DNA of 64,000 nucleotides, from positions 4,861,814 through 4,925,813 of the forward strand of contig NZ_CP118164.1 of assembly GCF_028748185.1 (NCBI RefSeq), given 5' to 3'. Numbering within the stretch: the stretch's first letter is position 1; every line of letters begins with the position of its first letter. Below are positions 36,140 through 56,377 of the stretch, piece by piece. A program made the translations under genes and the position numbers. Below the pieces are notes generated by a model. It was not told the DNA's origin, did not search any database, and saw only the letters and a list, made by a program, of their open reading frames with translations. This DNA is from Bremerella sp. P1 (GTDB lineage: Bacteria > Planctomycetota > Planctomycetia > Pirellulales > Pirellulaceae).

Positions 36140-36163
36140 GATTTAGCCACAGAGGGCACAGAG
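36140..36163 (+). repeat. Outer inverted repeat, left copy
   Basis: 24-bp sequence beginning GATTTAGCCACAGAGG. It matches the reverse complement of 37264-37287 at 22 of 24 positions. Confidence 0.8.
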
Positions 36164-36196
36164 ACCACCGAGGAGGAAATACGAGGGAGAAATCTA

Positions 36197-36214
36197 ACCA
36201 CGGATTACACGGAT
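36197..36214 (+). repeat. Second inverted repeat, left copy
   Basis: ACCACGGATTACACGGAT, matching the reverse complement of 37160-37177 at 16 of 18 positions. Confidence 0.75.
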
Positions 36215-36239
36215 GAGCACAGTACACGCTAACCTTGAC

Positions 36240-36392
36240 GGGTGGCCCAGAGATTCATCTCTGGGTAGCCGCAGGCTACAAGCGGCTAACGAATACGCGT
36301 TATCAAGATGGTGAGATTCCATTTTCATTTACGCCAGATGCATTAGCCGCTTGTCGGCGATGCCGACCCAGAGATAAACCTCTGGGCCACCC
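36240..36392 (+). repeat. 153-bp REP-like palindromic element, copy A
   Basis: Begins GGGTGGCCCAGAGATT and ends with its near complement CTCTGGGCCACCC. The left arm contains hairpin 1 (CCCAGAGAT/ATCTCTGGG) and hairpin 2 (AGCC-GCA-GGCT), then ACAAGCGGCTAA, which pairs with TTAGCCGCTTGT of the right arm. The right arm's hairpin 2 is CGGC/GCCG. The end lies four bases from the rayT stop codon. It is inverted relative to copies B and C by the arrangement of its hairpin-2 types. Confidence 0.93.
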
Positions 36393-36396
36393 GACG

Positions 36397-36912
36397 CTAG
36401 AATTCGGGCATCGAAATTGGAACGCCGACACTTTTTCCTTTGTCGTACCACCGAGCAGAACTCCATCGCCACTGAGCCGGAAGCAATGCGAACTTAGCCC
36501 GTACCGGGTTCATGTGCATGTAGTCCAGTTTCTCCTGAATCTTCGCCGGGTGATAGATTTCGAAGCTGTAGTAGCGCCGTTGCCAAATGGGAGTGTCGTC
36601 GCCAATGGCATCACCGTAGCTCCAGGCCCAACGCCTATATTGCTCCTTGATGGCATAGCTCGAGTCGTGTTTCCACTTCTGAATGAAAGACGGCAACTGA
36701 TTTAGTGTGTCAAACCAAACCAGCGCATGGACGTGATCTGGCATCAGAACGAATCCCGCACATCTTCCGCGATGCACTTTGAGGTTTGTGTTCAGGCAAC
36801 CCAATACGACGCGATTCGCTTGATCGTATTCAAGTATTCGACGGCGATGGTAACAACTGAACGTCACGAAATGAATGTAGAGTTGTTCCAGAGGCTGCCG
36901 TCGATTTGCCAT
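36397..36912 (-). CDS. REP-associated tyrosine transposase (RAYT, IS200-like HUH family)
   Basis: An intact 171-residue single-domain transposase. The HUH motif is His60-Val-His62 in VLMPDHVHALVW, and the presumed nucleophile is Tyr131 in LDYMHMNPVRAK; both are in the normal positions for Y1/RAYT enzymes. The conserved WRWSSARWY end is present. RAYTs cut and rejoin single-stranded REP hairpins in gammaproteobacteria. Here the gene is flanked by 153-bp palindromic elements on each side, four bases from its stop and 75 bases from its start. No promoter is obvious; it may depend on read-through. Confidence 0.93.
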   Translation of the reverse strand: MANRRQPLEQLYIHFVTFSCYHRRRILEYDQANRVVLGCLNTNLKVHRGRCAGFVLMPDHVHALVWFDTLNQLPSFIQKWKHDSSYAIKEQYRRWAWSYGDAIGDDTPIWQRRYYSFEIYHPAKIQEKLDYMHMNPVRAKFALLPAQWRWSSARWYDKGKSVGVPISMPEF

Positions 36913-36987
36913 ATTTCAAACTCCGTGCGTATGTGGAGGTGGAAAGTCTAACGCAGGCAACCAACCAAGAGCAACGAAAGCTCACCG

Positions 36988-37140
36988 GGGTGGCCCAGAG
37001 ATTCATCTCTGGGTCGGCGACGCCGACAAGCGGCTTATGGATGGAGTACGAACAAGATTGAGTCGTTCCATCCGGTTCATGCCTGCTTCATTAGCCGCTT
37101 GTAGCCTGTGGCTACCCAGAGATAAATCTCTGGGCCACCC
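36988..37140 (-). repeat. 153-bp REP-like palindromic element, copy B
   Basis: Same length and terminal sequence as copies A and C. The left arm has hairpin 2 as CGGC-GAC-GCCG and the right arm as AGCC-TGT-GGCT, the mirror of copy A, so it lies inverted to copy A. The centre has its own stem GGATGGA/TCCATCC with an inner ACGA/TCGT pair. Confidence 0.93.
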
Positions 37141-37159
37141 TCACATAAACACAACGCAT

Positions 37160-37177
37160 ATCCGTGCGATCCGTGGT
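37160..37177 (-). repeat. Second inverted repeat, right copy
   Basis: Reverse complement reads ACCACGGATCGCACGGAT; it pairs with 36197-36214 at 16 of 18 positions. Confidence 0.75.
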
Positions 37178-37218
37178 CACCCCCTTTTCTTCTCACTTGG
37201 AATGTAGTTCGAAATAAA

Positions 37219-37248
37219 AAACGCCTGGGACGATGGTCCCAGGCGTTT
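37219..37248 (-). terminator. Terminator of the LarA-family gene
   Basis: Twelve-bp stem AACGCCTGGGAC/GTCCCAGGCGTT with loop GATG; on the minus strand it is followed by TTTTTT. It lies about 45 bases past the stop of the gene at 37291. Confidence 0.88.
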
Positions 37249-37263
37249 CGTGTTCTGAGTGAA

Positions 37264-37287
37264 CTCTGTGTGCTCTGTGGCTAAATC
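37264..37287 (-). repeat. Outer inverted repeat, right copy
   Basis: Reverse complement begins GATTTAGCCACAGAGC, matching 36140-36163 at 22 of 24 positions. It ends three bases from the neighbouring gene's stop codon. Confidence 0.8.
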
Positions 37288-56224: not shown

Positions 56225-56377
56225 GGGTGGCCCAGAGTTTTATCTCTGGGTCGGCGCAGCCGACAAGCGGCTAATGAATGGACCTCACTTAAGATAGAAA
56301 CGTTCTATCTTGTTCTCACCTATTGCATGAGCCGCGTGTGACCTACGGCCACCCAGAGATAAAACTCTGGGCCACCC
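56225..56377 (-). repeat. 153-bp REP-like palindromic element, copy C (solo)
   Basis: A third copy of the element seen around rayT, also exactly 153 bp, lying in a convergent intergenic region with no transposase. Hairpin 1 uses GTTTTATC; left hairpin 2 is CGGC-GCA-GCCG and the right one is GGCC-GTA-GGTC when read on the minus strand, which pairs with a G-U wobble. The centre forms another 9-bp stem (AAGATAGAA/TTCTATCTT). Its orientation is the same as copy B. Confidence 0.92.

Follow-up and report, generated by a model that had tools for sequence, protein, structure and literature searches.

The locus raises the question of what links an intact RAYT gene to the repeats that lie inverted on either side of it, and of which of these repeats belong to the gene. 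The window (the whole 64,000-nt stretch analysed) is part of the Bremerella sp. P1 genome, here G000, a single contig of 6.96 Mb. A sequence-only reading had described one intact RAYT gene between inverted 153-bp elements, nested in turn within two inverted motifs, and all of these pairs were recovered. The features are as follows.

36140..36168, plus strand: outer motif A, left (CCACAGAG type, a separate repeat), 29 nt; the inverted pair is 86% complementary
36197..36214, plus strand: outer motif B, left (ACCACGGATTACACGGAT, a dispersed repeat), 18 nt; the inverted pair is 89% complementary
36240..36392, no strand: left 153-bp REPIN-like element, with type A arm 36240-36286 (plus) and type B arm 36346-36392 (minus)
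36397..36912, minus strand: RAYT gene, intact, 171 codons, 171 amino acids
36988..37140, no strand: right 153-bp REPIN-like element, with type B arm 36988-37034 (plus) and type A arm 37094-37140 (minus)
37160..37177, minus strand: outer motif B, right, partner of the left copy
37222..37245, no strand: terminator-like hairpin, host intergenic, read by eye; also at the cassette-free sites of G006 and G001
37259..37287, minus strand: outer motif A, right, partner of the left copy
56225..56377, no strand: third window copy of the element, distant from the RAYT gene (G000:C1:4918038-4918190)

The RAYT gene and the repeats around it

RAYTs are by family HUH/Tyr single-strand nucleases. The window protein has the HUH motif DHVH at residues 59-62 and the Y-motif YMHMNP with Tyr131, matched Y1_Tnp, and scored 94.1 bits with the NF047646 profile (cut-off 80); by HUH motif, catalytic tyrosine with Y---NP and profile score it is a member of the RAYT family by sequence. 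In 36 aligned protein rows, made up of the window protein and 35 of the 80 named loci described below (L200, which has a stop codon, L194, L201 and L224 were omitted), H60, H62 and N135 were invariant and Y131 and P136 nearly so. A search of PDB sequences at E 0.01 returned a sole match, 4er8, the E. coli TnpAREP with a REP hairpin. The predicted structure had a pLDDT of 90.7, and a fold search with this model ranked 4er8 first (E 4.5e-9, TM 0.68), so that the predicted fold is that of TnpAREP. The window RAYT is the only close copy in G000, where two more RAYTs match it at 30 and 33%. An ordinary IS200 element was rejected, the IS200 model NF033573 giving 29.3 bits against a cut-off of 55; the single close copy, with no near-identical set in G000, is also not that of an IS200/IS605 element.

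The nested inverted pairs, at three levels in the window, might mean that the outer motifs, the element and the RAYT gene form one symmetric unit, as the sequence-only reading had it. The 19-nt core of outer motif A occurs twice in the window, with 0.04 occurrences expected from shuffles. The neighbouring epimerase gene is present in 9/9 genomes of the genus. At the orthologous place in G006 and G001, motif A is found on both sides, together with the left motif B and the terminator-like hairpin, and the RAYT and the element are both missing from this intergenic region. At the G004 site there is one element, worn at its 5' end, together with the right motif A arm, and the stretch compared in the five other genomes of the genus has different intergenic DNA. 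Further, outer motif B is found at 20 places in G000 at 3 or fewer mismatches (control 0), of which one lies no more than 1 kb from an element, and some of 13 contexts considered among the 20 are nests of the order A, B, hairpin, B', A'. Because cassette-free copies exist both at the orthologous site and at other places, the outer motifs were rejected as part of the RAYT system; the cassette lies inside a separate repeat, the outer symmetry is no evidence on the RAYT system, and a single unit joining motifs, element and gene is extremely improbable. The window RAYT and its two REPINs are enclosed by a nested inverted repeat that is older, unrelated to them and surrounds a terminator. Nested inverted repeats of this kind (CCACAGAG... 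/ ACCACGGATTACACGGAT... around hairpins; window 36140-36214 and 37160-37287, and L129, L134 and L135) are dispersed in G000 and occur also in other species of the genus. A search of the open-access literature found no paper with the outer motif B sequence.

The two RAYT-flanking copies of the 153-bp element are 81% identical in inverted orientation, the outer arms being 94% and the inner arms 89% complementary, and have the ends GGGTGG...CCACCC. There are 9 element places in G000, with the full query covered at every one; this and all other per-genome counts of elements and arms are lower bounds, as a limited number of candidates was scored per genome. Full copies terminate in GGGTGG...CCACCC or close variants, and the flanking DNA is unrelated between copies. 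Each arm is built on one plan: a GGGTRG foot, hairpin 1 of 7-14 bp, an abutting hairpin 2 (4-7 bp, loop of 3 or 4) and a CAAGNGG tail, which reads CAAGCGG in the 153-bp element. Arms are about 41-56 nt long, or 86-89 nt in one subgroup. The REPIN is reportedly, from Bertels and Rainey in 2011, an inverted pair of REPs acting as one unit, with a RAYT in the genome. The unit of about 150 bp found here likewise consists of two arms inverted as one unit and is in this sense a REPIN, but its arms have two hairpins and, in the window's genus, are of two types. The second hairpin of type A arms is of the TAGCC/GGCTA or TGGCC/GG(T/C)CA kind, and that of type B arms is TCGGC/GCCGA. A type A arm was paired with a type B arm in 9/9 G000 elements, and in 21/22 complete elements from G000, G004 and G006 (the 22 of 28 elements that have both ends).

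Pairing within the arms was assessed in 44 arms found by BLAST, and so not picked for pairing: 98.2% of cells pair, and there were 47 double changes, many of which are the arm A/B difference itself, vs 18.9 after shuffling and 0-5 with the partner slid. Folded as single-stranded DNA, the right element gave -53.2 kcal/mol (z -10.5), with the arms paired together and both second hairpins protruding. Among four arms folded singly as DNA, hairpin 2 was in the lowest-energy form for the G008 arm only; the three window arms kept hairpin 1, and hairpin 2 was displaced by other pairings. Because lone window arms fold without it, support for hairpin 2 comes from covariation more than from energy.

REPs are described as having a single palindrome and a length of 20-50 nt (PMC8266576, PMC6006769). 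The arms have the GTAG/GTGG foot at the palindrome, with GGTTAG, GGATAG or GGCTAG feet at some loci. Like REPs, they are dispersed, extragenic and flanking a RAYT, extragenic location being judged roughly from the ORFs that surround the 9 copies in G000; some of these copies partly overlap ORFs of 100 or more codons. They differ in having two abutting hairpins in place of one palindrome, and their 41-56 nt overlaps the upper part of the published range. An Rfam search of the window gave nothing at the gathering threshold. The proposal of a larger, multi-hairpin repeat working with a RAYT held in two respects: the repeat exceeds a classical REP in size and complexity, and it is specifically associated with its RAYT across many genomes. 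As to the basic unit the proposal needed revision: a two-hairpin REP arm is the better interpretation, one that starts with a foot and a palindrome as known REPs do and usually occurs as an inverted double.

Arms at RAYT loci and in genomes

Close RAYT homologues in other genera are flanked by arms that follow the same plan and differ in hairpin sequence. A strict arm scan was positive at 20/31 clade RAYT loci (60 hits), dinucleotide shuffles giving 0.05 loci per round, and at 3/50 non-clade RAYT loci, with weak scores. Of the 11 clade loci missed by the strict scan, 10 were inspected; for the remaining one, L115, the gene was inspected as L019. A covariance model, R1, was built from 28 of 54 distinct scanner arms, 16 of the genomes behind the clade loci having contributed to it; because the scanner demanded pairs, the pairing in this 28-arm alignment is partly by construction. 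R1 found arms at 30/31 clade loci, i.e., all except L107, and at 0/50 non-clade RAYT loci.

A second set, from named genomes, consisted of the best 80 of 477 matches, 70 of them at 40% identity or more and 10 more distant. Among these best 80 of 477, an arm lay within 500 bp of the gene at 56/70 loci of the closer group, with arms on both sides at 39, and at 0/10 of the more distant loci. Of the 70, 14 have gene DNA in common with the first locus set; for the 56 that do not, again within the best 80 of 477, 43 had an arm within 500 bp and 27 had arms on both sides. The 14 of the 70 loci (best 80 of 477) with no arm within 500 bp include 9 with 500 bp of sequence on both sides. Arm density was 2.24 per kb at 500 bp or less from the gene vs 0.14 farther away. 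In a tree of 104 RAYT proteins (of 133, identical and short ones having been removed), arms were nearby, meaning anywhere in the locus sequence, in 62/67 rows of one clade (support 99/98) and in 0/37 rows outside it.

The hosts in the named set (best 80 of 477) are mostly Planctomycetota, plus Desulfobacterota MAGs and one Verrucomicrobia MAG, with the reservation that MAG labels may be erroneous. Outside Planctomycetota, clade RAYTs accompanied by two-hairpin arms are those at L170, L171, L178, L183, L184, L189, L197, L203, L209, L213 and L214 (Desulfobacterota or Deltaproteobacteria MAGs) and L227 (the Verrucomicrobia MAG), suggesting that gene and repeat were transferred together. The same repeat plan with different sequence across three phyla points to joint evolution of the RAYT enzyme and its DNA hairpins. 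At L227, the arms are arranged as direct repeats, and their foot is missing its GGG. The long-arm subgroup (L106, L109, L113-L116, L118, L192, L195, L204 and L207) is distinguished by a far longer hairpin 1 region, its arms measuring about 86-89 nt.

At the level of genomes, 30 of 396 genomes of the order have a clade RAYT (more than 180 bits, the next match scoring 111), in 1-3 copies each. The covariance model found arms in 30/30 of these genomes vs 45/366 of the others, and in 14/14 clade-RAYT genomes held out from the model, i.e., that had given no arm to it; Fisher's test gave 7.5e-25 for the first comparison and 1.1e-12 for the held-out genomes, with kinship of the genomes ignored. Among 60 relatives, the window's own genome included, arms were found in 8/8 clade-RAYT genomes vs 5/52 others. 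Linkage and shared descent alone would yield part of the association.

Among the 45 genomes with arms and no clade RAYT detected, many assemblies are in fragments, and the match in G240 is split; four (G006, G110, G118 and G177) are single contigs. The sequence-only reading tied the element to the presence of a RAYT. This tie, although strong across the order, was broken outright in G006, where neither NF047646 at E 0.001 nor a protein search found a RAYT on the one contig and at least 14 element places were present, and was half broken in G004, which has at least 15 elements and RAYTs of other clades only. The query was covered nearly end to end at 5/14 places in G006 vs 9/9 in G000 and 15/15 in G004. 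Of the other 9 G006 places, 3 are split by an IS110 element and the remainder are in keeping with decay. Decay is no explanation for G004, whose elements are uniform and which has at least 48 arms by the covariance model; an assembly gap or recent loss of the clade RAYT would explain them. Two RAYT fragments of other kinds begin near contig edges in that assembly (C11 and C17). The repeat populations of G006 and G004 may illustrate what follows once the enzyme is gone.

G008 and the movement of the elements

G008 has two clade RAYTs, 62% and 53% identical to the window RAYT and 58% identical to each other. The model found 21 arms (a lower bound), 4 of which are those at the RAYTs themselves; 11 match the arms of the first RAYT and 10 those of the second. 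Tails read AAGAAGC in 6 of 11 arms of the first family and AAGAGGC in all 10 of the second; one arm, L297, was assigned to its family by tail because a length change spoils its ungapped score. The dispersed pairs were single-family in 7/7 cases, all of the A/B type, and 3 arms were unpaired. This sorting of arms is the strongest single argument that the repeats follow the RAYT. G008 is also a natural test bed, in that two RAYTs and two matching repeat families in one cell make the recognition rules testable by swaps.

Both G008 RAYT genes have a B arm on one side and an A arm on the other, with the feet outward, the whole spanning 866 and 756 bp compared to 152 bp for the REPIN, and across loci the nearest upstream arm was foot-outward at 36/49 and the nearest downstream arm at 38/46. 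Such an arrangement would be that of an insertion sequence in which the RAYT and its flanking arms are a mobile unit with long structured ends and the 153-bp element is an internally deleted miniature. We consider this unlikely, given that there are 1-3 clade RAYTs per genome among the 30, that where copies were compared, in G008, they were far from near-identical, that the IS200 model scored below its cut-off, that the G000 gene sits between two complete REPINs, and that no target duplication was seen.

For 6/7 G000 sites, the two flanks are joined, with no full-length element between them, in one or more other species, and two sites, L005 and L007, are filled in G006 as well. The comparison of filled and empty sites was expected to define the ends of the element. 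It did reveal places without the full-length element in other species; it gave neither base-precise junctions nor the target-site duplication expected of a MITE; none was seen by eye in element flanks, and the empty sites are too diverged for one to be read. Junctions could not be set to the base because the intergenic DNA of the genus is too diverged. At the G006 site orthologous to L004 (L269), a short double-foot palindrome replaces the full element, as if the inside of the inverted pair had been deleted.

Elements sit close to gene ends and terminators, and they persist in G006, where no RAYT was found, and in G004, which has RAYTs of other clades only, as would be expected of structural or regulatory repeats kept by the host (terminators, RNA-stability sites or protein-binding sites) in or beside which RAYTs merely land. 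Against such host repeats, the G008 arms sort into two families, each corresponding to the arms at one of the two RAYTs, the arms of the model are missing from the 50 non-clade RAYT loci, and 6 of the 7 G000 sites are without the full-length element in one or more other species; we regard this explanation as very unlikely.

Comparison with known systems

The data establish the arm architecture, its link to one RAYT clade and the presence of two cognate families in one genome. Judged by sequence, the system is of a known kind, REP/RAYT, in what appears to be a new form: a two-hairpin REP with its own RAYT clade. A REP/RAYT system of this form, including the predicted mechanism, is in our view the likely overall explanation. 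The RAYT would recognise the folded foot-hairpin-hairpin arm on exposed single-stranded DNA, would cut the arm at the foot or the tail, and would transfer REPINs to new intergenic sites, and its gene would remain low in number (one copy or a few), adjacent to or flanked by REP arms. Binding and movement of the repeat by the RAYT are inferred from studies of TnpAREP (PMC8266576, PMC6006769).

According to these papers, the REP/RAYT systems of groups 2 and 3 (REPtron, TnpAREP; subclasses 2.2 and 2.5) share with the present one an HUH/Tyr RAYT with Y---NP, a GTGG/GTAG foot before the palindrome, REPs flanking the gene, dispersed copies, inverted pairs, and a REP family of its own for each RAYT (PMC8266576, PMC6006769). 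The difference from what is described there is in the two abutting hairpins followed by the CAAGNGG tail. The signature DHVH / WQ / YMHxNP has no exact row in the published subclass table, with 2.6 and 2.7 nearest; the paper also mentions misplaced members of 2.2 in which GTGG is abundant.

Double palindromes next to RAYT-like genes have their nearest precedent in PMC3733652, which describes the TIRtrons and the double inverted repeats of P. putida and P. fluorescens, where double palindromes lie on either side of RAYT-like genes. These Pseudomonas repeats are described as a degenerate GTAG-1 unit joined to another stem-loop, present in hundreds of copies, and the same paper reports GTAG repeats in R. 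baltica, a planctomycete (PMC3733652). They are reported there for two Pseudomonas genes, whereas here the arrangement spans a whole RAYT clade. The double palindromic TIRs of Figure 9 of PMC3733652, compared by text only, may include relatives. Class 3 TnpAY1 proteins (Planctomycetes and others) are similar in being planctomycete HUH proteins that adjoin atypical secondary structures, but they have a Y----Q motif and a CnGA foot in place of Y---NP and GGGTRG (PMC6006769). In searches of the open-access literature we found no description of the clade-wide two-hairpin arrangement.

A bolder interpretation is possible, though doubtful: the proteins would be a separate RAYT subclass of Planctomycetota and Desulfobacterota, whose substrate would be an obligate pair of unlike two-hairpin ends (A/B as left/right), with REP-RAYT-REP as the autonomous form and the REPIN as its miniature, i.e., a living intermediate between IS200/IS605 and domesticated REP/RAYT.

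How RAYTs choose and spread REPs is described as an open question in PMC8266576. For the two-hairpin REP/RAYT system, this question becomes narrower, given a foot and a tail that are conserved and the two hairpins between them. The REP/RAYT experiments described in the papers considered here rest on gammaproteobacterial one-hairpin REPs; the present clade is a well-bounded one in other phyla, with a more complex, co-varying repeat as its candidate substrate.

IS elements that target REPs are known elsewhere (PMC1525189, PMC8450116). In G006, three identical IS110-family elements of about 1.37 kb (NF033542, 236.5 bits) each interrupt a 153-bp element, at L307 (2576800-2579400), L308 (2597000-2599700) and L309 (2735600-2738200). 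Since IS elements target REPs elsewhere and IS110 splits these elements, the 153-bp elements behave as REP-like targets too. The split point is identical in all three, at the base of hairpin 1: CTCTCTGG / IS / GGCCACCC.
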